Positions 30,209-59,867 of a stretch of 64,000 bases of DNA are shown in pieces (positions within the stretch are counted from its first letter, which is position 1; each line of letters starts with the position of its first letter). A program made the translations under genes and the position numbers. This DNA is from Nitrospirota bacterium (GTDB taxonomy: Bacteria; Nitrospirota; Nitrospiria; Nitrospirales; Nitrospiraceae). The notes beneath the pieces were generated by a model. It searched no databases and was not told where the DNA came from. It saw only the letters and a list, made by a program, of their open reading frames with translations. The DNA lies in assembly GCA_030684575.1 (NCBI GenBank), contig JAUXVD010000003.1, forward strand, positions 248,001 through 312,000, given 5' to 3'.

Positions 30209-30229
30209 AGAAAGGTGGGTGCCGTGGCC

Positions 30230-30904
30230 ATGAGTGACGCCAATACGACATTTTCATTTATCGGCTGCAGTGAAATTCAGGAGATCCTCGGGAAGCAAGC
30301 CGAGGATGAACGCCAGCTTGCAGAAATGTTGGAAGAAGTCCCGCTCGATTCGGTGTACTTCCACACGCATAGCTATTTCCTGCGGACCAGATTTATCGAA
30401 CGCATCTACCCCAACGACTTTGCCGAGTGGGTAGGTGAGCAGGTGCGGGATCACGTGCTGGCAGAACGCCTGTCCGTCTTGGATCCGTTCGATTTTCAGA
30501 GCCTGGAGGCCCTGCGGGAGGAGCTGATCTCCATTATCGACGACCATCTGTCCGGCCTGGCGACGGTGCCTCGGGTGGGATTCGGGACGTCCTTTTTCTT
30601 CAACCGATCGCGGATTTTAGAGGTGCCGACCGGCGTGGAAGTCAGAACGCTGCGGGAGTTCCGCGATGCGATCTCCGAGGTCGATATCAGTGCGATTTAT
30701 TTCCATGTGTTCGAGGCTCATTTGCGGTTGCAGCGGGAGGAGAACGATTTCTCCGCCTGGATCAGAGGCAGTCTCAATCTGCCGGAGTTGGCTGACCGCA
30801 TGCGATCGTTGAACCCGTATCTCGGCAGTCTCGAACGACTGCGGTCGAGCCTGTTGACCATGTGCGATGACCATCTGGCGAAGTCGGGTGGGCCGAAAGG
30901 GTAG
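30230..30904 (+). CDS. DUF5752-like protein with internal duplication
   Basis: A 224-residue cytoplasmic protein resembling the DUF5752 family, which often sits beside glycosyltransferases and trehalose genes. Two similar halves are visible: VPLDSVYFHTHSYFLRTRFI with PNDFAEWVGEQVRDHVLAER and, later, ISAIYFHVFEAHLRLQREEN with DFSAWIRGSLNLPELADRM. Each half carries a YFH.....R plus DF..W pattern and ends in a DDHL or CDDHL-like segment. ATG 30230 is preferred to GTG 30215. A role as a binding or regulatory factor for the neighbouring enzymes is possible but not shown. Confidence 0.65.
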   Translation: MSDANTTFSFIGCSEIQEILGKQAEDERQLAEMLEEVPLDSVYFHTHSYFLRTRFIERIYPNDFAEWVGEQVRDHVLAERLSVLDPFDFQSLEALREELISIIDDHLSGLATVPRVGFGTSFFFNRSRILEVPTGVEVRTLREFRDAISEVDISAIYFHVFEAHLRLQREENDFSAWIRGSLNLPELADRMRSLNPYLGSLERLRSSLLTMCDDHLAKSGGPKG

Positions 30905-42797: not shown

Positions 42798-43439
42798 TCA
42801 GACAGAGACGAGCCCGTGGGTCACGGCATACTTGGTGAGGTCGGCGGTGGTGCGCAGCCCCAATTGCTTTGCGATGCGGGCCTTGTGGAATTCTATGGTT
42901 TTTGACGAGACGCAGAGGATGGACGCGATCTCCTTCAGCGATCGTCCTTCGGCGACCAGTTGGAGGACTTCGCGCTGACGCAGCGTGAGGGTGGCTTGTG
43001 CGCTTGCAGGGGATGTCCGCTGATGGAGCAGCGGATCCAGGACGCCCTTTGCCAAGAGCGGCGATACGTAGAGGTGGCCACGCAGGGAGGCGCGAATCGC
43101 TTGCACGAGTTCCGTGGCGCTTGCCCGCTTAAGCACATAGCCCGAGGCGCCGGCGCGAAAGGCTTCCGTGACATAGGTCGGGTCGCCGTGCATGCTGAGG
43201 AACACCAGTTTCGCATCGGGGACGAGACGGCGAAGCTGCTGGGCGGCATCAATGCCGTTCAGCAGCGGCATCGACAGATCGAGGAGAATCACGTCCGGTT
43301 CCAGTCGTGGCGCAGCTTCAATCAGGGCGCGCCCATCCCCAACCGAACCGACTAAGTTAAATTCAGGCTCCAGCACTTTCTGAAGAGCCTCGACGAACAT
43401 CGTGTGGTCGTCTGCCAGGAGAATGCTCGGTTTCGTCAT
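42798..43439 (-). CDS. NarL/LuxR-type response regulator
   Basis: A 213-residue regulator with a receiver domain (SILLADDHTMFVEALQKVLE; acceptor Asp54 in VILLDLSMP) and a GerE-type helix-turn-helix (LTLRQREVLQLVAEGRSLKE onward, about 148-205). The start ATG overlaps the stop of the histidine kinase gene (ATGA). It is expected to act as the output of that kinase. The target is unknown; the cupredoxin-like gene 220 bases downstream is one candidate. Confidence 0.92.
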   Translation of the reverse strand: MTKPSILLADDHTMFVEALQKVLEPEFNLVGSVGDGRALIEAAPRLEPDVILLDLSMPLLNGIDAAQQLRRLVPDAKLVFLSMHGDPTYVTEAFRAGASGYVLKRASATELVQAIRASLRGHLYVSPLLAKGVLDPLLHQRTSPASAQATLTLRQREVLQLVAEGRSLKEIASILCVSSKTIEFHKARIAKQLGLRTTADLTKYAVTHGLVSV

Positions 43440-44197
43440 GATGGCTCCTTTGGCCATGGAAGGCGGGCAACGACTTCGGTCCCTTCGATCGGCGTCGAAT
43501 GCCACTCCACCGATCCGTTCAGCTGTCGTACCCGCTCCTGCATGCTGAGCATGCCGAGTCCCGGCCTGCCTCTGCGGACTTCTTCGAGGTCCATGCCGAT
43601 TCCGTTGTCTAGAATGGTGAGACACAGGGCTTCCGGCGTCACCGACAACTTGACGGCCACTTGCGACGCCTTGGCATGTAGTCCGACGTTTCCCAAGCTC
43701 TCCTGCGCAATGCGATAGAGACAGGTTGCGAGGCGTAGCGGGATGGGCATGCCCGAACGCGGCTTCGTAAATCTAGCTTTGATGCCGGTGCGTTTGACGA
43801 ACTCGTTGATATAGCGCTGAAGGGCCACGACCAGCCCGAGATCATCCACCGTGGTCTGGTGAAACCGGTAGGCGAGTTGACGGACATCGTCTGATAGCTC
43901 GCTGACATGTCGGCGGATGCCGCGTATCCGGCGGCGAATGGCTGCGGGAGATTCAGGAAGATCCCGGCACAACGAGTCCAGGTGGAGCCCGATCGCGCCC
44001 AGTCGCTGATTCACATCGTCGTGCAGATCACGAGAAATTCTTCGGCGCTCTTCGTCCTGAACTGTGAGTAATTTCCCAGCCAGCGTTCGCAGATCGTTCT
44101 GGGTCCGATCCATGTCCTCAATGTGAGGATCAACTCCTATAGGAAGAACCTTCTGAGTTCGCATTTGTCCCAGTGTCCCCGACATCGCATGCGTCAC
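43436..44197 (-). CDS. Soluble NarX-type histidine kinase
   Basis: A 253-residue kinase lacking membrane segments and any visible sensor domain; residues 1-40 are short and unstructured. The HisKA_3 dimerisation motif ERRRISRDLHDDVNQRLGAI carries the phospho-acceptor His59, followed by an HATPase domain with LYRIAQESLGNVGLHAKASQ, DNGIGMD and GLGMLSMQERV. The start GTG 44197 lacks a clear ribosome-binding site; Met5 and Met12 are alternatives. Cytosolic location suggests an internal signal or another partner as sensor. Confidence 0.85.
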   Translation of the reverse strand: MTHAMSGTLGQMRTQKVLPIGVDPHIEDMDRTQNDLRTLAGKLLTVQDEERRRISRDLHDDVNQRLGAIGLHLDSLCRDLPESPAAIRRRIRGIRRHVSELSDDVRQLAYRFHQTTVDDLGLVVALQRYINEFVKRTGIKARFTKPRSGMPIPLRLATCLYRIAQESLGNVGLHAKASQVAVKLSVTPEALCLTILDNGIGMDLEEVRRGRPGLGMLSMQERVRQLNGSVEWHSTPIEGTEVVARLPWPKEPS

Positions 44198-48071: not shown

Positions 48072-49214
48072 ATGGCCTCCAAATCTAACAATCAGATTAA
48101 CGTTATACCGAAAGTTTTGCTTCAACAGTTGATCGATGTGCTTTCTGCACAAGGCTATCGCACGGTCGGTCCGGTCGCGCGCGACGGAGCTGTCCTCTGG
48201 GACACCATCCGACAGGTATCGGATCTGCCGATCGGTTGGCGCGATGAGCAGGCGCCTGGACGCTATCGCATAGAACAGACCGGCTCGGCCAGGATTTTCG
48301 GTGTGGTCCATGGGCCGCAGTCTGTGAAGCCGCTGGCATTTGCGCCGCGTGAGCCGTTGCTGACGATCGAACGGAGTCAGGGGCGGGTTTCGGTTCAGCC
48401 GACAATGCCGAAGAGCGAGAAGGTTGCGGTGCTCGGGGTGCGGGCCTGCGATCTGGCAGGGCTCGCGATCCAGGATCACATCTTTCTGAAAGACGCCTAC
48501 CGGGATCCCTATTATCGTACACGTCGTGACGGCCTGTTTCTGATTGCGGTGAACTGCACTCGCGCGCTCGCCACCTGTTTTTGCGCCTCGATGGACACCG
48601 GTCCGCGAGCGGGCGCAAGTTTCGACCTCGCCCTGACCGAATTGGACGAAGCATTTCTCGTGGAAGCAGGCAGTGAAGCTGGCCGAGAGGTGGTGCGCGC
48701 ATTATCGCCTGCGCCGGCCTCGACCGCGCAGACCCGCGAAGCCGAACAGCAGATCGAGGCCTGCGCCGGTAGCCAGACGCGGCAGTTGGACCGATCGCAG
48801 CTCCCACAGGCCCTGTATGACGCGCATGAGCATCCACGATGGGACGATGTCGCGGTGCGCTGCCTCGCCTGCGGGAATTGCACGATGGTGTGCCCGACCT
48901 GTTTCTGTCATGCGGTCGAGGAGGTGCCGAACCTCACGCAGACAGGTAGTGAACAGAGCAGATTGTGGGATTCCTGTTTCACCCAGGACCATGGCTATAT
49001 TCACGGCAAGAACATTCGACCGACAATCAAGGATCGTTATCGCATGTGGCTCACCCACAAGCTGGCTTCCTGGATCGATCAGTTCGGCACCTCCGGCTGT
49101 GTCGGCTGCGGACGGTGCATCACCTGGTGCCCGGTCGGGATCGATCTCACCGAAGAGTTGCCGACGTTACTGAAACCATCGAGTCCGGCCAAGGAAAAAT
49201 CTAGCCAATCATGA
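48072..49214 (+). CDS. hydB: Group 3b [NiFe] hydrogenase/sulfhydrogenase beta subunit (iron-sulfur)
   Basis: A 380-residue iron-sulfur subunit that carries electrons between the hydrogenase dimer and the flavin subunit. Its C-terminal half has two [4Fe-4S]-type motifs, RCLACGNCTMVCPTCFC (Cys264, 267, 270, 274) and GCVGCGRCITWCPVGIDLTE (from Cys343), with another Cys-rich area (GVRACDLAGLAIQDHIFLKD, CFCASMDTGPRAG). This order matches the AsrA/HydB family. The stop overlaps the next gene's ATGA. Naming follows archaeal hydBGDA; the substrate partner (NADP or sulfur) is not settled by sequence. Confidence 0.88.
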   Translation: MASKSNNQINVIPKVLLQQLIDVLSAQGYRTVGPVARDGAVLWDTIRQVSDLPIGWRDEQAPGRYRIEQTGSARIFGVVHGPQSVKPLAFAPREPLLTIERSQGRVSVQPTMPKSEKVAVLGVRACDLAGLAIQDHIFLKDAYRDPYYRTRRDGLFLIAVNCTRALATCFCASMDTGPRAGASFDLALTELDEAFLVEAGSEAGREVVRALSPAPASTAQTREAEQQIEACAGSQTRQLDRSQLPQALYDAHEHPRWDDVAVRCLACGNCTMVCPTCFCHAVEEVPNLTQTGSEQSRLWDSCFTQDHGYIHGKNIRPTIKDRYRMWLTHKLASWIDQFGTSGCVGCGRCITWCPVGIDLTEELPTLLKPSSPAKEKSSQS

Positions 49215-50077
49215 CACGCTTCTCACAGGTCACGGAGAATGGCGCACTCAATCCCTATCTGATTCAGCCTGCCACGATTGTGGAGAAGATCAGAGAAGCG
49301 GAAGATATCGACACCTATCGGTTACGTTTCGTCGATGAACAGGCGCGGCGGAGTTTTCGATTCGCGGCCGGGCAGTTCAACATGGTTTATCTCTTCGGCG
49401 TCGGCGAGGTGGCAATCTCGATCGTGTCGGATCCTGATGAGCCGGAGTCCCTGGCCCACACCATCCGTGCGGTAGGGCGAGTCACCAAGGCCATCGCGCA
49501 ACTGCAGCCTGGCGATGAGCTGGGCATCCGTGGGCCGTTCGGACAGGGCTGGCCGCTCGACGACGCGCTGGTCAAAGATGTGCTGATCGTGACCGGCGGG
49601 CTGGGCTGTGCGCCGGTCGTCGGCGCCATTGAATATATCTTTCGTCGACGCAACCAGTATGGAGCCGTGAAGATTCTACACGGGGTCAAGACGCCGCACG
49701 ACCTGCTCTTTCGGGAGCGGTTCGATGCCTGGCGAAGACATCCCGATACTCAGGTCTTATTGACCAGCGACCAGCCCGATAAGACCTGGCATTACCACGT
49801 CGGCGTGGTGACGGAACTTTTCGAGCAAGTGGCGTTGGACCCGGCACGGACCATGGTCTTGATGTGCGGACCGGAGATCATGATGCGTTTAGGCGTGCCG
49901 ATCTTGATGCAGCGAGGGATTCCGGCGACCGCGATCTACGTCTCGCTGGAGCGGCACATGGAATGCGGGATCGGCCTCTGCGGCCATTGCCAATTGGGCC
50001 CCTATTTTCTGTGTAAAGACGGCCCGGTCATGCGGTACGACCGGGTCGCGCCGTGGTTGGGACGGACTGGTGTGTGA
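49211..50077 (+). CDS. hydG: Hydrogenase gamma subunit, FAD/NAD(P)-binding
   Basis: A 288-residue diaphorase subunit of the ferredoxin reductase type. It has a FAD-binding beta-barrel (about 15-105; RSFRFAAGQFNMVYLFGVGE), an NAD(P)-binding domain with DVLIVTGGLGCAPVVGAIEY, and a C-terminal [2Fe-2S] cluster motif MECGIGLCGHCQLGPYFLC (Cys252, 257, 260, 268). It is predicted to exchange electrons with NAD(P)H. The start overlaps the beta gene by ATGA. Confidence 0.9.
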   Translation: MTRFSQVTENGALNPYLIQPATIVEKIREAEDIDTYRLRFVDEQARRSFRFAAGQFNMVYLFGVGEVAISIVSDPDEPESLAHTIRAVGRVTKAIAQLQPGDELGIRGPFGQGWPLDDALVKDVLIVTGGLGCAPVVGAIEYIFRRRNQYGAVKILHGVKTPHDLLFRERFDAWRRHPDTQVLLTSDQPDKTWHYHVGVVTELFEQVALDPARTMVLMCGPEIMMRLGVPILMQRGIPATAIYVSLERHMECGIGLCGHCQLGPYFLCKDGPVMRYDRVAPWLGRTGV

Positions 50078-50099
50078 TCGGTGATGGGATGCCGTCGCT

Positions 50100-50948
50100 A
50101 TGAATGACAAGAACACAATTAAACCGCTCGTGACGCCCATGCGGCCCAAGCTCGGTGTCTTTAAATTCGCCTCCTGCGACGGATGCCAGCTCAGTATTTT
50201 GAACCTCGAAGATGACCTGCTCGCGCTGGGGCAGGCCTTGAACATTGCCTATTTCCCCGAAGCTTCCAGCGACATGAGGGAGGGGCCCTACGACATCGCC
50301 TTGGTGGAGGGGTCCATCACGACGCCGGAAGATGCGCATCGAATTCTGTCCGTGCGGAAGCAAGCCGCCATGTTGATCACGATCGGCGCCTGCGCCACGG
50401 CAGGCGGGATTCAAGCCCTGCGTAACTGGGGGGATGTCGAGGCTTTCAAACGAGTGGTCTATCCGAGTCCTCAGTATATCCAGAGCCTCAGTACCTCGAC
50501 GCCGATCTCGGAACATGTGCATGTCGATTTTGAGTTGTGGGGCTGTCCGATCGATAAAACTCAATTACTCCTGGTGATCACCGATCTATTAGCCGGCGTG
50601 CAGCCGCGACTGCCAACACATAGTGTATGCATCGAATGTAAACGCCAGGGGAACGTCTGCGTGATGGTCGCCAAGGGGATTCCCTGCCTCGGGCCTGTGA
50701 CACGTACCGGTTGCGGTGCGATTTGTCCGAGCATGGGTCGGGACTGCTACGGCTGTTTCGGCCCGGCCGAAGGCCTGCATGAAGGTCCCGGACTCCCTCC
50801 GAATACGGCCGCGCTGGCCAAGGAGTTTAATCAGGGACTCCAACTTATTCCCGCTGAGGTGTTGCGCCGGTTCCGCGGCATCAACGGCTCTGTCAGGCCG
50901 TTTCGAGAGGAGAGCCAGGCATGGGAGCAGAAAGACCGTGACGCGTGA
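50100..50948 (+). CDS. hydD: [NiFe] hydrogenase small subunit, group 3-type
   Basis: A 282-residue soluble small subunit that chains electrons to and from the active site. FASCDGCQLSILNLEDDLLA (Cys26, Cys29) begins the proximal cluster, with LITIGACATAGGIQALRN and CIECKRQGNVCVMVAKGIPC, then CGAICPSMGRDCYGCFGP. There is no Tat signal, as expected for a cytoplasmic group 3 enzyme. It starts 22 bases after the gamma gene. Confidence 0.92.
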   Translation: MNDKNTIKPLVTPMRPKLGVFKFASCDGCQLSILNLEDDLLALGQALNIAYFPEASSDMREGPYDIALVEGSITTPEDAHRILSVRKQAAMLITIGACATAGGIQALRNWGDVEAFKRVVYPSPQYIQSLSTSTPISEHVHVDFELWGCPIDKTQLLLVITDLLAGVQPRLPTHSVCIECKRQGNVCVMVAKGIPCLGPVTRTGCGAICPSMGRDCYGCFGPAEGLHEGPGLPPNTAALAKEFNQGLQLIPAEVLRRFRGINGSVRPFREESQAWEQKDRDA

Positions 50949-50978
50949 CGAGTACTATATAGCGCGAGCCTGTACGTC

Positions 50979-52286
50979 ATGAGTGAATCAAACGACAATA
51001 AGACAAGAACCATCTCGGTCGGCATGATTGCGCGCGTCGAAGGCGAAGGCGCACTCCGTGTCTCTGTGAAAGAGGGCGTCGTGCAGGATGTCGAGCTGAG
51101 GATCTTCGAGCCGCCGCGGTTCTTCGAGGCCTTCCTGGTAGGGCGACATTACGACGAGGTGCCGGACATCGTGGCGCGGATCTGCGGCATCTGCCCCGTG
51201 GCCTACCAGATGAGTGCCGTCCATGCGTTGGAGCAGATCTTCGGTGTGACCGTGGAGGGGGCGCTGCGGGATGTGCGGCGGATGATCTACTGCGGCGAAT
51301 GGATCGAGAGCCATACGCTCCACGTCTACATGCTCCACGCGCCGGATTTTCTCGGCTATGCCAGCGCGATCGCGATGGCCAAAGATCATCCGGAGATCGT
51401 GACCAGGGGGCTGCGATTGAAGAAAGCCGGCAATGCTTTGATGACCCTGCTGGGTGGCCGCTCCGTGCATCCGGTTTCGGTGAAGGTTGGTGGATTTTCT
51501 CGCGTGCCGTTGCGCCGTGAACTGGAGGGGCTGAAAGATGAATTCCTGTGGGCACGCGATGCAGCGGTGGAGACTGTCCGCTGGGTCGCGGGGTTCGACT
51601 ACCCTGATTTTGCGCAAGACTATGCCTTCGTCGCGCTCCGTCCTCCCGATGCGTATCCCTTCAACGCGGGGCCGATCCTGTCCAGTGGCGGTTTGAATAT
51701 TTCTGCTGAGGAGTTCGAACAGTATTTCAGGGAAGAACAGGTGCCCTATTCCACGGCGCTTCAATGCAGACTCAATGGGGCCAGTTATTTGGTGGGGCCA
51801 ATGGCGCGGCTGAACCTCAATCATGACCATCTGTCGCCGCTGGGGAAGCAGGTATTGGCCGACACCGGACTGTCGGTGCCTCTGTGCAATCCTTTTCACG
51901 CGGTCGTGGCCCGCTCCGTCGAAATCCTCTATGCGATCGAGGAAACGCTGCGGATCATCGACCGCTACGAGCCGCCACCCAGTCCGTCGGTCCCGGTGAC
52001 CGTGCGTGCCGGTATCGGTATGGCCTGTACCGAAGCGCCGAGAGGAATTCTCTATCATCGGTATCGGGTGGATGGCGACGGCCTGATTCGCGAAGCCAAG
52101 ATCGTTCCGCCCACCTCGCAGAATCAGCGGCGGATCGAGGAGGATCTGCGAGCCTATCTGCCTCGTCTGCTGGATCTCTCGAACGAGCAAGTGGCGTTGG
52201 GATGTGAAAAAATTATCCGTTGTTATGACCCTTGTATCTCCTGCGCGACGCATTTCTTGAAACTGGACATTCAGCGTGACGGGTAA
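50979..52286 (+). CDS. hydA: [NiFe] hydrogenase large (catalytic) subunit, group 3b-like
   Basis: A 435-residue catalytic subunit that binds the NiFe centre. The L1 motif [20 protein letters not shown] has Cys69 and Cys72, and the L2 motif [10 protein letters not shown] has Cys419 and Cys422, giving four nickel ligands. The ten residues after the L2 His ([10 protein letters not shown]) are the likely pro-peptide removed by the endopeptidase. Lack of a signal and the partner genes place it in group 3. H2 oxidation or production with NAD(P)H is expected. Group 3b against 3d is inferred from the subunit set. Confidence 0.93.
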
Positions 52287-52289
52287 CGT

Positions 52290-52781
52290 ATGACACACAT
52301 CGGAGCGCAACATTCCGTCCGCATCATCGGAGTCGGCAATCTGTTCAGGGGCGACGATGCAGCAGGAGTCCTGGCCGCACGGCGGCTGAAGGCCCTGGTG
52401 GGAGACCGCGCCGACGTGATTGAAGCGGAGCTGGCTGGTCTCGACGTGCTGGACTTGATGGCAGAGGCGTCAACGGTATTCCTGATCGATGCGGCAAGGA
52501 GCGGTCAGCCTGCAGGGACCATTCATCGTCTCGATGCGTCTGCCGGGCCGATCTCAGCAGACCTGTTCCCTCATTCCACGCATGTCCTGAATGCGGTAGA
52601 CGCGATCGAGATGGGCCGTACCTTGGGCCTCCTTCCATCTCGCGTGATCGTATATGGACTGGAAGTCGGGGACACCAGGGCCGGGAACGAGCTGTCTCCG
52701 GCGGTTGCCGCAGCGTTGGATCAGGTTGTCGAGCGAGTCGTCCATGAGTTGGAGGCGCTTTCGTGCACGAGTGGCAGCTGA
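52290..52781 (+). CDS. Hydrogenase maturation endopeptidase
   Basis: A 163-residue protease of the HyaD/HybD/HycI family, which removes the C-terminal peptide of the large subunit once nickel is in place. It has RIIGVGNLFRGDDAAGVLAA with the metal-site Asp, and a conserved second Asp/His area (LDVLDLMAEASTVFLIDAAR, HSTHVLNAVDAIEMGR). It is 3 bases after the large subunit gene and overlaps hypA by 19 bases. Confidence 0.9.
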   Translation: MTHIGAQHSVRIIGVGNLFRGDDAAGVLAARRLKALVGDRADVIEAELAGLDVLDLMAEASTVFLIDAARSGQPAGTIHRLDASAGPISADLFPHSTHVLNAVDAIEMGRTLGLLPSRVIVYGLEVGDTRAGNELSPAVAAALDQVVERVVHELEALSCTSGS

Positions 52782-53116
52782 TGGCCCAGGTGGTCAAGAT
52801 GGTAGAGGAGGCGCTCAGCCAGGCTCCCTCTGCGAGACCGTCGGTCGTGCGGCTCAAAGTCAGTACGCAGTCTCATATCTTCGAGCACGATGCGGCGACC
52901 TTGCAATCGGTCTTTGCTGCGGCCGCAGCGGGGACTGTGGCTGAGCAGGCCGCGCTGGAGATTCTGCCGGTGTCGGTCACGGGCCACTGCCGGCTCTGCG
53001 GGACGTCCTGCGAGATGCATGAGTTGCTGCAATGTTGTCCTGGTTGCGGGTCGGCAAGTGTGGAAGCGGAGCCAGTCCCTGAGGTGATGCTGTACGAAGT
53101 CGTGGTGAAGGAATGA
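52763..53116 (+). CDS. hypA: Hydrogenase nickel-insertion accessory protein HypA
   Basis: HypA binds nickel and passes it to the large subunit, usually with HypB. It is 117 aa, starts GTG with the protein beginning MHEW (His2 is the nickel ligand; HypA normally begins MHE), and has a zinc site in CRLCGTSCEMHELLQCCPGCG (C-x2-C twice). It overlaps the endopeptidase gene. hypB is not found in the window. Confidence 0.93.
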   Translation: MHEWQLMAQVVKMVEEALSQAPSARPSVVRLKVSTQSHIFEHDAATLQSVFAAAAAGTVAEQAALEILPVSVTGHCRLCGTSCEMHELLQCCPGCGSASVEAEPVPEVMLYEVVVKE

Positions 53117-55458
53117 AACAGGACACCATCGTTCGCCTGCGCATCACCGTGGAGGGAACGGTCCAGGGGGTCGGATTCAGGCCGTTCACCTATCGCGTAG
53201 CGCAGGAACTGGGAGTGGCCGGATGGGTGATGAACAGCGCTCATGGGGCAGTACTGGAACTTGAGGGGCCGGTTGCTGTGGTGGAGACCTTTCTCGCGCG
53301 CCTGCAATCAGAAGCGCCGGCGGCGGCGAAGGTGGACCGGCTGACCGTAGGACCCGCGAATCCGATGGGAGCGACTGTATTTGAGATTCGAGCCAGCGAA
53401 GGTGCTGGTGTGCGGCGTTTGGTGGTGCCACCGGACCTTGCGACCTGTGCCGATTGTCTGGGCGAGATGCGCGATCCGATGGATCGGCGCTTCCGCTATC
53501 CCTTTCTCACCTGCACCCAATGTGGCCCACGATTCAGCCTCATCACGGACATTCCCTATGACCGCGCCAACAGCACGATGAGCGGGTTCCTCCTGTGCCG
53601 GGATTGCCAGGCTGAGTATGACGATCACCGGAATCGTCGCTTTCATGCCGAACCGATCGCCTGTCCAGTGTGTGGTCCTCGATTGGCCCTGTGGAATATT
53701 CAGGGAGAAGAGGTGGCCCGTGAGCAGGAAGCGTTGCAGCAGGCCTGCGAGATCATTCGGAACGGCGGGATCCTCGCGGTCAAGGGAGTCGGAGGATTTC
53801 AGTTGTGGGTGGATGCCTGCTCGGAATCAGCGGTGCAACGGCTACGCCTGCGCAAAATGAGACCGGATAAACCCTTTGCGGTCTTGTTCCCCTCTATGTC
53901 CGCTGTGCAGACATCATGCGGCCTGAGTCAGGAGGAAGAAGGAGTACTGCTCTCTCCCGAATCGCCGATTGTGCTGCTGCGACAGAGCGAACCGTTCGGA
54001 CTGGCTCTATCTGTGTCGCCGGACAATCCTTACGTCGGCGCGATGGTGCCCTACAGCCCGCTCCACTGTCTGCTCATGACTGAGTTGAACGCTCCGGTGG
54101 TAGCCACCAGCGGCAATCGTTCAGACGAGCCGATTGTGATCGATGAACAAGAGGCGTTGGTTCGACTTGCTGGAATTGCCGATGCGTTCCTCGTGCACGA
54201 TCGAGCGATCGCGCGGCCAGTTGATGATTCAGTCGTACGTGTGATCGAAGGCGAGCAGTTGATCATCCGGCGAGCGAGGGGATACGTGCCGCGATCAATC
54301 AGGATACAGGCGCCCCTGATGAACGGACGCGCGATGGTTCCGATCCTGGCAGTCGGGGGCCATCTCAAGAACACGATTGCACTGATGTCCGGCGATCAGA
54401 TCATGCTGAGCCAGCACCTTGGCGATCTGTCTACCCTGGAATCCTTCGAGGCGTTTCATCGCGCCGTTGATGATCTGCAACGGCTGCTCGACGTACAGCC
54501 GAAACTCGTCGCCTGCGATCTCCATCCCGACTATCGATCAACCCTGTTTGCGCAGGAATTCGCCGAGCGCCACGCGGTTCCGCTCGTTCGAGTGCAACAT
54601 CATCATGCGCATGTCGCCGCCTGTATGGCGGAACATGGATTGGATGGCGAGGTGCTGGGCGTCGCCTGGGACGGGTCCGGGTACGGAACGGATGGCAGGA
54701 TCTGGGGAGGGGAGTTCCTTGTCGCAGGGTATCAAGGCTTCAGGCGCCTTGCCCATCTTCGGCCCTTCCGCTTGCCTGGCGGAGAGCTGGCCATGCGTCA
54801 ACCCTGGCGTTGTGCCTTCTCAGTCCTATGGGAAATCTATGGCGAGAGGATGGCGGTTCAGGAACTTGCGGTCCGGCAGGGTGATAGAGAGGAACGCGAC
54901 GTGCTATCGGTCCTCTTGAGGACGGGCATGGCCTCTCCCGAGACCACCAGCATGGGACGACTGTTCGATGCCGTATCTTCACTTGCTGGCTTCCGTGATG
55001 TAGCCAGTTTTGAAGGACAGGGGGCCATGGCCCTTGAGTTTGCCGCAGAACGGTATGAACAGCTTGCTCCAGGTAATGAGACGGGTTATCCATTTCCTCT
55101 CGCACGGGGTGAGGACACCCACGCAATGTGGGTAGCTGACTGGCAGCCACTGATTGAGTCGCTGATACAGGAGAGGCGCACAGGAAGCAGTCCCGAACGA
55201 ATCGCCTATCGGTTTCACCTCGGCATGGCCGATCTGATCGGCCATGTGGCGAAGCAAGCGGCGTTACCGCGGGTGGTGCTGACCGGTGGATGCTTCCAGA
55301 ATGCCCTGTTGCTCCGGCTTGCGCGTCGCCGGTTGGAGCAAGCGGGGTTTACCGTCTATACCCATCGCCTGGTGCCGCCCAACGACGGGGGGCTCTCCCT
55401 TGGACAGGCGGTCGTGGCGGCGCATCGTTCCGGCGGGAAGTGCGATTCAGACGTATGA
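53113..55458 (+). CDS. hypF: Carbamoyltransferase HypF
   Basis: HypF makes the cyanide ligand precursor of the NiFe centre from carbamoyl phosphate, moving a carbamoyl group to HypE. It is 781 aa. Parts in order: acylphosphatase-like (GTVQGVGFRPFTYRVAQEL), two zinc fingers (CADCLGEMRDPMDRRFRYPF, CRDCQAEYDDHRNRRF, CPVCGPRL), YrdC-like domain (GGILAVKGVGGFQLWVDA), and the Kae1-like domain (VQHHHAHVAACMAEHGLDGE). The ATG overlaps hypA's stop. Confidence 0.96.
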   Translation: MKQDTIVRLRITVEGTVQGVGFRPFTYRVAQELGVAGWVMNSAHGAVLELEGPVAVVETFLARLQSEAPAAAKVDRLTVGPANPMGATVFEIRASEGAGVRRLVVPPDLATCADCLGEMRDPMDRRFRYPFLTCTQCGPRFSLITDIPYDRANSTMSGFLLCRDCQAEYDDHRNRRFHAEPIACPVCGPRLALWNIQGEEVAREQEALQQACEIIRNGGILAVKGVGGFQLWVDACSESAVQRLRLRKMRPDKPFAVLFPSMSAVQTSCGLSQEEEGVLLSPESPIVLLRQSEPFGLALSVSPDNPYVGAMVPYSPLHCLLMTELNAPVVATSGNRSDEPIVIDEQEALVRLAGIADAFLVHDRAIARPVDDSVVRVIEGEQLIIRRARGYVPRSIRIQAPLMNGRAMVPILAVGGHLKNTIALMSGDQIMLSQHLGDLSTLESFEAFHRAVDDLQRLLDVQPKLVACDLHPDYRSTLFAQEFAERHAVPLVRVQHHHAHVAACMAEHGLDGEVLGVAWDGSGYGTDGRIWGGEFLVAGYQGFRRLAHLRPFRLPGGELAMRQPWRCAFSVLWEIYGERMAVQELAVRQGDREERDVLSVLLRTGMASPETTSMGRLFDAVSSLAGFRDVASFEGQGAMALEFAAERYEQLAPGNETGYPFPLARGEDTHAMWVADWQPLIESLIQERRTGSSPERIAYRFHLGMADLIGHVAKQAALPRVVLTGGCFQNALLLRLARRRLEQAGFTVYTHRLVPPNDGGLSLGQAVVAAHRSGGKCDSDV

Positions 55459-55503: not shown

Positions 55504-57234
55504 ATGTATCGTCGTGTGATGGCGTTTGATTTTGACGGAACGTTGGCGGTGGATGGGGTGGTGCCCCGTGATCTCGAAGAGGCGCTCGAACGATGCCGTG
55601 CTGCTGGTTATGCGCTCTTTCTTGTCACGGGTCGGCGTTTCGAGGCCGTCCAGCTTGGCCGCCTCAGCAAGCTGTTTACCGGAGTGGTCTGGGAGAACGG
55701 CGCGGTCTTGGTTCACAGCGCGACCGGTGAAGTCTATCTGCCATTCGGGCAGCTCGAGGATCGCCTCGTGAAAGCAATGAAGGACGCGAAGATTCCCTTC
55801 GAGGAGGGGTTGGCGATTGCGGCCACCTGGGTGCCGCACGACCAGGTGGTATGGCAGGTCCTCGGCGCCCATGGTGGGGGTGCAGTTGTCGAGTATAACA
55901 AAGGGGCCGTGATGATTCTGCCGGCTGGTGCGGCGAAGGGGGCGGGGTTAGAGCGATTGCTTACGATCTGCGGGTTTTCAGCCCACAATCTAGTCGCGTT
56001 CGGCGATGCCGAGAATGATATCTCGATGCTGCGGCTGGCGGAGGTCGCGGTGGTGGTCGGGGATGCCGTGCTGGCAGTTCGAGAGATGGCCGATGTGGTC
56101 GCGGCTGGTCCGGGGCCGGCAGGGGTGCTGGAAATTCTGAATCGGTATCCTTTGGCTGGTAAGTATTTCGATATTCCATTGCGACGCGAGCGGCGGATTG
56201 TGATCGGCCGGGACGGATCGAACAGCGAGGTGTCTCTGCCGGGGTCTCGCCTGGCCGGGCGGAACTTGGGTGTGTTCGGTGACTCAGGCACAGGCAAGTC
56301 CTGGGTGGTTGGACTGTTGGCCGAAGGGCTGCATCGCGAGGACTATCAGGTCCTCCTTGTGGACCCTGAAGGAGATTTCCGCGGGCTCAGGGCTCTTCCG
56401 CGATTCGTCGCATTGGAGGGAGATGGTGTGTCCATGCCGGCACCATCGGCCGTGGCGGCATTGCTGGATACCGGTGGTGTGTCGGCGGTGGTCGATCTCA
56501 GCCGATACCCGGTCGCCATGCGGATCCCCTATGTGGCTGAGCTCCTGCGCGCGCTTCGTCCATTGCGGGAGCGAAAGTATCGGCCACATTGGATTGTCTT
56601 CGATGAAGCGCAGCAGCTGTTCCCGCCGAACGGTGGAGAGGCGGCAGGCTCGGTGATTCCGCTGTTGGACCATGGCGGATGGGCCTTTGTGTCCTATCGG
56701 CCTGACCGCCTTGACCCGATGGTGCTTGGATCCGTGCACCATTGCCTGGCAACTCGAATGGTCGAGCCGGAAGCGGTTCGGGCGGTGAAAGAGCATTGTG
56801 GCGATTGCGGGATTCGTGACGTGAACTTTGCCGAGATTCCTTCCGGTGAGATTCTCTTGTGCGAGGGGCAAGTGGCCCGTTTGCGCCCGGCCCTCCGCAG
56901 GATTCCGCACATCAGGCATTTCTATAAGTATCTTGAGGTTCCGTTGCCGCCTGAGAAGCGATTCTGGTTCCGGGATGCGCGGGAGGCTGTGGGGCACGAA
57001 GCGGCCAGCCTGTACGAGTTCTTACAGATTATCCAGACGGTGCCGCACGCGAGTCTGGAGTATCACGACCATCGGGAAGATTTTTCACGGTGGGCGGTGA
57101 GCGCGTTGGGCGATGCGGACCTTGCCGCGCGTCTGCGGAAGCTGGCGCATCGACAGCTCAAAGGGAAGCAGCTTCGAGAGGCCATCCGGCAAACCGTCGC
57201 GGCGCGCTATGAAGAGCTGAATGCGTTACGCTGA
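55504..57234 (+). CDS. HAD-phosphatase fused to HerA/VirB4-like ATPase, unknown function
   Basis: A 576-residue two-domain protein. Residues 1-205 form a Cof-type HAD hydrolase (FDFDGTLAVDG with Asp9 and Asp11; LFLVTGRRFEAVQLGRLS; FGDAENDISMLRLAEVAVVV). Residues about 225-576 form an ATPase with Walker A GDSGTGKS (259-266), GFRGLRALPR-type body, and Walker B IVFDEAQQLFPPNG (Asp367, Glu368), as in HerA/DUF87-type P-loop enzymes. It sits between hypF and hypC, 45 bases after hypF and 143 before hypC, in the hydrogenase maturation run. No known hyp gene matches. It could be a maturation factor or an unrelated insertion. Confidence 0.8.
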   Translation: MYRRVMAFDFDGTLAVDGVVPRDLEEALERCRAAGYALFLVTGRRFEAVQLGRLSKLFTGVVWENGAVLVHSATGEVYLPFGQLEDRLVKAMKDAKIPFEEGLAIAATWVPHDQVVWQVLGAHGGGAVVEYNKGAVMILPAGAAKGAGLERLLTICGFSAHNLVAFGDAENDISMLRLAEVAVVVGDAVLAVREMADVVAAGPGPAGVLEILNRYPLAGKYFDIPLRRERRIVIGRDGSNSEVSLPGSRLAGRNLGVFGDSGTGKSWVVGLLAEGLHREDYQVLLVDPEGDFRGLRALPRFVALEGDGVSMPAPSAVAALLDTGGVSAVVDLSRYPVAMRIPYVAELLRALRPLRERKYRPHWIVFDEAQQLFPPNGGEAAGSVIPLLDHGGWAFVSYRPDRLDPMVLGSVHHCLATRMVEPEAVRAVKEHCGDCGIRDVNFAEIPSGEILLCEGQVARLRPALRRIPHIRHFYKYLEVPLPPEKRFWFRDAREAVGHEAASLYEFLQIIQTVPHASLEYHDHREDFSRWAVSALGDADLAARLRKLAHRQLKGKQLREAIRQTVAARYEELNALR

Positions 57235-57377: not shown

Positions 57378-57662
57378 ATGTGTTTAGCGATTCCCGGGCA
57401 GGTTCTCAATATCAAGGACGATCAACTCCGTACCGCGACGATCTCGTTCGGCGGCACCATGAAAGAGGTCTCCCTCGCGCTCGTGCCGGAAGCAATGGTC
57501 GGGGACTATGTGATCGTGCATGTGGGATTTGCCATCAGCAAATTGGATGAGGACGCGGCGAGAAGGTCACTTGAATTGATAGCGCAACTCGATAAGGGAG
57601 AAGCGCAAGGCAAGGGGCCTGAGGCACTGGGCAGGGTCGAGAGATCTGGCCTGTTGCCGTAA
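57378..57662 (+). CDS. hypC: Hydrogenase assembly chaperone HypC
   Basis: A 94-residue chaperone of the HypC/HybG family; the essential N-terminal Cys is present in [20 protein letters not shown]. It holds the Fe(CN)2CO fragment with HypD and hands it to the large subunit. Its middle ([20 protein letters not shown] and [19 protein letters not shown]) is well conserved; the C-terminal 20 residues are variable. An in-frame start at 57276 would bury the Cys and is rejected. It starts a cluster of hypC-D-E. Confidence 0.96.
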
Positions 57663-57688: not shown

Positions 57689-58801
57689 ATGAAGTACGTT
57701 GATGAATACAGAGAGCCTGCGACCGCTGCGGCATTGGCCGAGACGATCAAGCGAACAGTGACCAGGCCTTGGACGATCATGGAAGTCTGCGGCGGGCAAA
57801 CCCATTCGATTGTGCGGTTCGGCCTCGATGCCCTGTTGCCGGCGAAGCTGACCCTCGTGCATGGGCCTGGCTGTCCAGTCTGTGTCACCCCGATCGGCTT
57901 AATCGATCAGGCGCTCCAGCTTGCGTCGTTGCCACGAGTGATCTTCTGCTCCTTTGGGGACATGCTGCGCGTACCTGGCTCGCAGGGCAATCTGTTCGAC
58001 GTCAAGGCTGCCGGGGGAGATGTACGCATTATCTATTCACCGCTGGACGCGCTGGAGTTGGCCCGCGAGAACCCTGACCGTGAGATTGTATGTTTTGCAG
58101 TGGGATTTGAGACGACCGCGCCGGCCTATGCGATGGCGGCGATCCAGGCGCGACGCCTGGGTCTGACCAACTTCAGTCTGCTCGCGGCCCATGTGTTGGT
58201 GCCGCCGGCCATGGAAGCCATCTTGTCTGCTCCAGGCTCGCTCGTGCAGGGTTTCTTGGCGGCCGGTCATGTCTGTACCATCATGGGCTACGAGGAATAC
58301 GAAGACCTGGCGCGACGCTATCGCGTGCCCATCGTCGTCACAGGGTTCGAGCCGATCGACATTCTGGAAGGGATCGCGATGCTCCTGTGCCAACTCGAAG
58401 AAGGGCGAGCAATCGTCGAAAACCAATATGTGAGATCCGTGCGTCGGGAGGGCAACGTGTCGGCCCAAGCGGTTGTGCGAGAAGTCTTCGAGCCAACGTT
58501 GCGCGCATGGCGTGGCATCGGCGACATCCCTCACAGCGGCCTGAAGCTCACATCTGCCTATGCCAACTTCGATGCAGCGATGCGATTTCGTGAGGCACTC
58601 TCACAAGCCGGTCCGGTGGGCGGAGAAGATCCAGACTGTCAGAGTGGTCTGGTCTTGCAGGGCCTGCTCAAACCGCCGGACTGCCCGGCCTTTGCCACGC
58701 GCTGCACGCCGGAGAAACCTCTCGGCGCGCCGATGGTATCCAGCGAAGGGGCCTGCGCGGCCTATTATCGGTATCGACGAAGGAGCGGAAGTGAGTGCTG
58801 A
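57689..58801 (+). CDS. hypD: Hydrogenase formation protein HypD
   Basis: HypD (370 aa) carries a [4Fe-4S] cluster and redox-active cysteines and assembles the Fe(CN)2CO unit with HypC. Motifs: [19 protein letters not shown] (catalytic Cys), [31 protein letters not shown] and, near the C-terminus, [10 protein letters not shown]-type [13 protein letters not shown] and [20 protein letters not shown]. It follows hypC by 26 bases and overlaps the hypE start. Confidence 0.95.
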
Positions 58802-59867
58802 CGAGAGTGAGAGACGAATGAAGGACGAAGAATTTCAACTTCAATGCCCGCTGCCGGTCTCCGGTGACCGCGTACTCCTGGCGCATGGTGGCGGTGGCAG
58901 GCTCATGCAGGACTTGATTCGCGAGATCTTTCTCCGTTCGTTCGACAACGAGTTGCTCCGCCAGCTCCACGACGGCGCGACATTCCCGGTCGGGAAGGGC
59001 ACCCTTGCCTTCACCACAGATTCCTACGTCGTGTCGCCCTTATTCTTCCCAGGCGGGAACATCGGAAGCCTGGCGGTGCATGGCACAGTCAATGACCTTG
59101 CCATGTGCGGAGCGATGCCCCTCTATCTCAGCGCAGGGTTCATTCTGGAAGAGGGACTCTCTCTGGACATGCTCAGGAAAGTGGTGGAGTCGATGGCGAA
59201 GGCGGCGGAAGGGGCGGGGGTGCAGGTCGTGACCGGAGATACCAAGGTGGTAGATCGGGGTAAAGGCGACGGGATTTTCATCAACACCGCGGGAATCGGC
59301 GTCGTATCCCCTGGTGTTCGCATTGGCCCACAAGAGATCAAAGTCGGGGATCGAATTCTATTGAGCGGCGACCTTGGTGCACATGGCTTGGCCGTGATGA
59401 GTGTGCGTGAAGGGTTACGCTTCACCGGCGAGATCGAAAGCGACTCGGCGCCGCTGCATCTGCTTGTGCGTGATCTGCTGGAATGCGGAGCATCAGTCCA
59501 TTGCCTGCGCGATCTAACGCGCGGAGGATTGGCGACGGCGCTCAATGAGCTCGCTGCCGGAGCGAAGGTGGGCATGACCGTTGAAGAACGTCGCATTCCT
59601 GTTCGAGAGTCCGTGCGCGGAGCCTGTGAGCTGTTGGGCCTCGACCCCCTCTATGTTGCGAACGAAGGGCGGTTCGTCGCCTTCGTGCCGGACGCGCATG
59701 TGGAGGCATCGTTGGCCGCCATGCGCCGGCACGCAGTCGCACAGCAGGCGGTGCAGATCGGCACCGTCACGGCGGAGCATCCCTCGTTGGTGGTGCTGCG
59801 GACCGTATTAGGCACGCATCGTATTCTTGATCTCTTGTCCGGCGAGCAGTTGCCGCGCATCTGCTAG
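58791..59867 (+). CDS. hypE: Hydrogenase expression/formation protein HypE
   Basis: HypE (358 aa) turns the thiocarbamate from HypF into thiocyanate and donates the CN ligand. It is a PurM-like ATPase with [60 protein letters not shown] and the C-terminal PRIC that bears the essential terminal Cys. GTG 58791 follows AAGGAG and overlaps the end of hypD; ATG 58818 would give 349 aa but has a poor ribosome-binding site. Confidence 0.95.

Follow-up and report, generated by a model that had tools for sequence, protein, structure and literature searches.

The window, by which we mean the whole 64,000-nucleotide stretch of Nitrospirota DNA that was analysed, carries a hydrogenase operon on its forward strand. 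The order of the genes is hydrogenase beta-gamma-delta-alpha, maturation protease, hypA, hypF, a fusion ORF, hypC, hypD and hypE. Their positions, together with those of the domains and motifs of the fusion ORF, are given in Table 1. The hydrogenase fits group 3b by its sulfhydrogenase-type subunits, the scores of which lie below the equivalog cut-offs. Genes for PPDK and Usp surround the hydrogenase in the window. A NarL/DegU-type response regulator and a sensor histidine kinase, encoded at 42798–44197 and pointing away from the PPDK and hydrogenase genes, form a possible regulator of the island. The hypC and hypD genes are adjacent in the window and separated by about 3.4–5.6 kb in several Nitrospira group-3b operons (L138, 4407–8001; L139, 7092–12650; L141, 3768–8001; L145, 4636–7998).

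Table 1 Features of the hydrogenase operon, the fusion ORF and a related stand-alone gene in the window.
Feature	Position	Strand	Remarks
Stand-alone two-repeat DUF5752 protein	30215..30904	+	Between GH15 enzyme and alpha-amylase-family/TreT trehalose pair
Group-3b [NiFe]-hydrogenase subunits beta, gamma, delta, alpha	48072..52286	+	
Hydrogenase maturation protease	52290..52781	+	
hypA	52763..53116	+	Starts M-H-E; two CxxC pairs
hypF	53113..55458	+	Ends 46 bp upstream of fusion ORF
HAD-IIB / HerA-like ATPase / DUF5752 protein (fusion ORF)	55504..57234	+	ATG start, 576 aa, stop included
HAD-IIB phosphatase domain	55504..56148	+	Residues 1–215; Pfam/NCBIfam
HerA/FtsK-type RecA-fold ATPase domain	56179..56937	+	About residues 226–478; DUF87 and fold
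Walker A GDSGTGKS	56278..56301	+	Residues 259–266
Walker B-type FDEAQ	56599..56613	+	Residues 366–370 (D367/E368)
DUF5752-type helical domain, C-terminal	56962..57222	+	Residues 487–573; Pfam
hypC	57378..57662	+	ATG 57378; 144 bp downstream of fusion ORF
hypD	57689..58801	+	
hypE	58818..59867	+	Start inferred inside ORF 58560–59867

The initial annotation described the protein encoded between hypF and hypC as a fusion of a HAD phosphatase and a HerA-type ATPase. The ORF, its motifs and both domains were confirmed using Pfam and NCBIfam; the description was incomplete in that it missed the third, DUF5752 domain. The N-terminal part matches Hydrolase_3 (1.2e-23) in Pfam and, at residues 6–185, HAD-SF-IIB in NCBIfam above its cut-off, and the Pfam DUF87/HerA match (1.4e-10) is likewise above the cut-off. 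The DUF5752 match scores 29.7 bits against a cut-off of 23 and covers half of the two-repeat Pfam model. The HypB profile TIGR00073 gave no match to the fusion ORF. Conservation of the motifs was assessed in an alignment of 20 diverse fusion members with identity down to about 30%. The HAD motif residues D9, D11, T42, K145, G167-D168 and N171-D172 are kept across this set, and G259, S261, G264, K265 and S266 of Walker A and E368 of Walker B are invariant. These HAD residues comprise the DxDGT pair of nucleophile and acid (D9 and D11), the Thr of motif II, the Lys of motif III and the Mg ligands of motif IV (GDxxND), and E368 corresponds to the catalytic Glu of the ATPase. Since both sites are conserved family-wide, both the HAD and the ATPase active sites are probably used.

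An AlphaFold model of the whole protein was of good quality in the ATPase part and the C-terminus and poor in the HAD part; the C-terminal domain modelled alone from a single sequence gave a weak model. VIA-align superposed the ATPase part, residues 228–477, on HerA structures with Z scores of 26.4 (PDB 9x1m) and 26.2 (4d2i). The HAD part, modelled at low confidence, aligns to the BT4131-type sugar phosphatase 1ymq with a Z score of 17.1. No HypB-like chain was present among the Foldseek and VIA matches listed for the model, which does not mean that there is none. The comparison with HerA and HypB that the initial annotation had proposed places the ATPase with HerA, in a P-loop class that differs from that of HypB. 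The N-terminal HAS barrel of HerA-NurA systems is absent, the HAD domain occupying the N-terminus of the fusion, and neither nurA nor another nuclease gene is found among the annotated neighbours, the flanks being hypF and hypC.

The absence of hypB from the window, already pointed out in the initial annotation, extends to the whole source genome (99.84% complete), in which the TIGR00073 profile found no match. The sole full G3E GTPase found in the genome is of the COG0523 type and lies beside a cation-efflux gene, far from the hyp operon; a HypB encoded elsewhere was ruled out on these two grounds. UreG is also absent from the genome, because it would match TIGR00073 weakly, as it apparently does in relatives. 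The hypD gene occurs in 47 of 147 Nitrospiraceae genomes (46 over cut-off). A hypB over cut-off occurs in only four, each of them one of the 47, so that hypB is missing from 43 of the 47 hypD-bearing genomes. In each of the four, a copy of hypD lies within 2–4 kb of hypB; at these hypB-bearing clusters, the hyp genes that were read share only about 35–55% identity with those of the window. One of the genomes, G098, has two clusters, one with hypB and one of group 3b that lacks hypB and contains the HAD-HerA ORF. Weaker TIGR00073 matches of about 80 bits in other genomes look like UreG, judging from length and score.

Absence of hypB is therefore the rule for such clusters, and no special replacement is needed at the window site. 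It follows from the same count that the group-3b hydrogenases of Nitrospira are probably normally assembled without HypB. The apparent lack of HypB in the assembly of most of them agrees with a remark in PMC12342949 that such hydrogenases may mature by a different route or have lost their function.

The fusion occurs in two forms. The close form was found by whole-genome search in 38 of the 147 Nitrospiraceae genomes, two of them with fragments, and lies inside the hyp operon in only five (G000, G052, G056, G083 and G098), the hyp-operon copies of which share 85–87% identity. The distant form, about 30–34% identical and of the same architecture, constitutes a deeply separate branch present in some 26 Nitrospiraceae genomes, and also in rhizobia, Burkholderiales, cyanobacteria and one actinomycete. 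A first homologue scan yielded 22 Nitrospira loci with a full-length protein, only two of them (L005 and L006) inside a hyp operon; the flanks of the other 20, up to 10 kb on each side, contain none of the hydrogenase or hyp genes of the window, except for weak (26%) hypE-like paralogues in two. HAD-HerA genes are split or broken at G001:C1:1078043-1079717, G052:C36:31166-32853 and G099:C3:469354-470206, either by recent decay or by natural fission of the fusion.

The close form is lacking in 29 of the 47 hypD-bearing genomes, and any HAD-HerA protein in 22. The close form is mildly enriched in genomes with hypD (18 of 47, versus 20 of 100 others; Fisher p 0.026, uncorrected for phylogeny). 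Among 296 Actinomycetota genomes the fusion is present in nine and hypD in 153 (151 over cut-off); four genomes have both, on different contigs and no more often than expected, and the fusion lies beside hypD in none of the nine. The actinobacterial locus L190 (2–9683) holds, within 10 kb, the end of a [NiFe]-hydrogenase large subunit with its protease, a gene for pyruvate:ferredoxin oxidoreductase and the HAD-HerA gene, the last about 7 kb from the hydrogenase subunit and protease; this is the only non-Nitrospira case seen near a hydrogenase. The fusion is thus usually away from hydrogenase genes in Nitrospiraceae, its position in the hyp operon being restricted to a few species. Its absence from many hypD-bearing genomes, and from the empty operons described below, does not fit a general hydrogenase maturation factor, which would be expected alongside every such hydrogenase and hyp set. 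The predominance seen here of homologues without hydrogenase neighbours is what the initial annotation had itself named as speaking against a role in maturation.

Outside the hyp operon, the neighbourhoods are those of stress and carbohydrate genes. Of the 20 Nitrospira loci that are not in a hyp operon, 13 have a CBS-pair gene, encoding 155 aa in most cases, directly upstream of the fusion; phosphoribosyltransferase, Hsp20, Usp and an uncharacterised 166-aa protein are further neighbours. Several distant-form Nitrospira loci are near Ku, catalase and trehalose genes. The neighbours are Usp, CBS and phosphoketolase in Agrobacterium, trehalose-6-P synthase, debranching enzyme and GT4 in Aminobacter, a GT4 pair in Caballeronia, hemerythrin, Hmp and catalase in Paraburkholderia, and hemerythrin, Dps and rubredoxin in Synechococcus; Usp is also among the neighbours in an actinobacterium. 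The window's stand-alone DUF5752 protein, a relative of the third domain of the fusion, matches OrfY (4cso) at 7e-18, and its place within a trehalose/glucan cluster together with the OrfY relation suggests a role of DUF5752 in trehalose/glucan metabolism.

Three hyp operons without the insert were found (L127 in G027, L133 in G100 and L142 in G132). In each, hypF is followed by hypC after 30–42 bp, and there is no true hypB. The operon of G132 is close to that of the window, with 92% identity for hydA, 89% for hypD and 97% for the downstream mgtC/DUF4010 gene. In G132 and G027 the HAD-HerA gene lies at another site, and in G100 another site has a fragment of it at a contig end. When six operon proteins were concatenated for a tree, the empty operon L127 was basal in the insert-bearing group (99%), and no operon outside this group has the insert; the phylogeny therefore indicates that insertion of the fusion is derived. 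The inner nodes are weak (41–55%), and L133 and L142 fit either never having had the insert or having lost it. In the HAD-HerA tree, the root of which is on a very long branch, the hyp-borne copies are at the base and not inside the others; the operon tree was used for the direction because the long outgroup roots the HAD-HerA tree among the hyp-borne copies. The ancestral island was not found in the genome of the window, since a search there for a remnant of the CBS gene gave only generic CBS matches of 27%.

The initial annotation suggested a new maturation or nickel-handling factor. In the tempting form of this interpretation, the fusion would take the place of HypB in maturation or nickel delivery, with the ATPase standing in for the HypB GTPase. 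The fusion lies between hypF and hypC on the same strand, with short gaps, in five genomes, hypB is absent, and Thermococcales are known to have non-canonical substitutes for HypB. However, 19 of the 43 Nitrospiraceae genomes that have hypD and lack hypB also lack a HAD-HerA protein of either form, the operon exists without the insert in G027, G100 and G132, and most homologues are away from hydrogenase genes. The HerA/FtsK fold of the ATPase, moreover, belongs to another P-loop class than the G3E/SIMIBI fold of HypB. We consider this role highly improbable, and HAD-HerA as a general HypB replacement is ruled out by the co-occurrence counts and the empty operons. The identity among the five hyp-operon copies leaves room for a local recruitment as a group-3b accessory factor, for example one that would regulate or protect maturation under stress in a lineage without HypB, although we regard such recruitment as very unlikely.

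The other proposal of the initial annotation, a genome-maintenance ATPase that merely shares the transcript, is supported as regards the sharing of the transcript; genome maintenance would be a putative role, the ATPase being HerA-like and DNA a putative substrate. Taken as a DNA-end machine, the protein would be a HerA-type translocase whose HAD domain removes phosphates from DNA ends after stress. The HerA fold, the presence of Ku within a few genes of several distant-form copies in Nitrospira and the stress-island setting are consistent with such a function. The HAD domain, however, is of the capped IIB subclass, characterised members of which act on small molecules, whereas DNA 3'-phosphatases are capless. 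With no nuclease partner such as NurA alongside and glucan/trehalose neighbours at least as frequent, a function at DNA ends appears unlikely. HerA also occurs with effectors in anti-phage defence systems such as SIR2-HerA and DUF4297-HerA; SIR2-HerA is among the closest folds, and in PADLOC the fusion matched mad8 at 1.6e-9 and, more weakly, HerA. Nonetheless, the PADLOC matches span only the ATPase part, the neighbours are metabolic and stress genes rather than defence genes, and the fusion is conserved in its clade with steady divergence instead of patchy turnover, which makes a defence protein scarcely credible.

The reading that we favour, and hold to be probable, is that of a widespread phosphatase-motor protein of stress islands, probably a HerA-like hexamer with HAD domains, which entered an operon from which hypB was already missing. 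The 85–87% identity of the hyp-operon copies, their basal position in the HAD-HerA tree, the mild enrichment with hypD, the hydrogenase proximity in L190 and the poor HAD part of the model were counted against it. In the proposed mechanism, the ATPase domains would form a HerA-like hexameric ring bearing the HAD domains, and the ring, by binding or turning over ATP, would drive or gate hydrolysis of a small phosphorylated metabolite. The substrate would most likely be a sugar phosphate from the stress metabolism of trehalose and glucans, and the DUF5752 domain may dock the fusion to the trehalose/glucan machinery. Its place in the hyp operon would then serve co-expression under low-oxygen or starvation conditions and not nickel insertion. 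The initial annotation was fair in calling the architecture unusual and undescribed, as a limited literature search found no paper on the HAD-HerA fusion or on DUF5752. The component families are known and NCBI names relatives 'HAD-IIB family hydrolase', the fusion itself being apparently unstudied. The analysis removes a tempting candidate for HypB replacement and draws attention to a conserved, widespread fusion that joins a phosphatase to a HerA-type motor in stress islands of bacteria.

The fusion can be compared with several known systems. With HypB, the nickel GTPase, it has in common that both are P-loop NTPases, but of different classes, and no homology between the two was detected. 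With HerA of S. solfataricus (4d2i) and the HerA-NurA system of T. kodakarensis (9x1m) it shares the RecA-fold core with Walker A and B over residues 228–477 at only about 20% identity; it differs from them in its N-terminus, where a HAD domain replaces the barrel, in lacking a NurA partner and in its C-terminal DUF5752 domain. All four HAD motifs are common to the fusion, the Cof-type HAD-IIB sugar phosphatases (BT4131, 1ymq; YidA) and the archaeal phosphoglycolate phosphatase PH1421 (1wr8). The matches to family models have E values of 1e-20 to 1e-24, the scores lie below every equivalog cut-off, and, unlike in these phosphatases, the HAD domain of the fusion is joined to a putative ring ATPase. 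OrfY of Thermoproteus tenax, the structure of which (4cso) was deposited as that of a transcription factor, has DUF5752 in common with the C-terminus of the fusion, with two repeats in OrfY and one in the fusion. Counterparts in architecture belong to the deeply separate branch and do not adjoin hyp genes in the loci read: the 'HAD-IIB family hydrolase' proteins of Sinorhizobium pSymB, Aminobacter, Synechococcus and Agrobacterium plasmids have the same three-part organisation and align with the fusion over 91–99% of its length at 30–33% identity.
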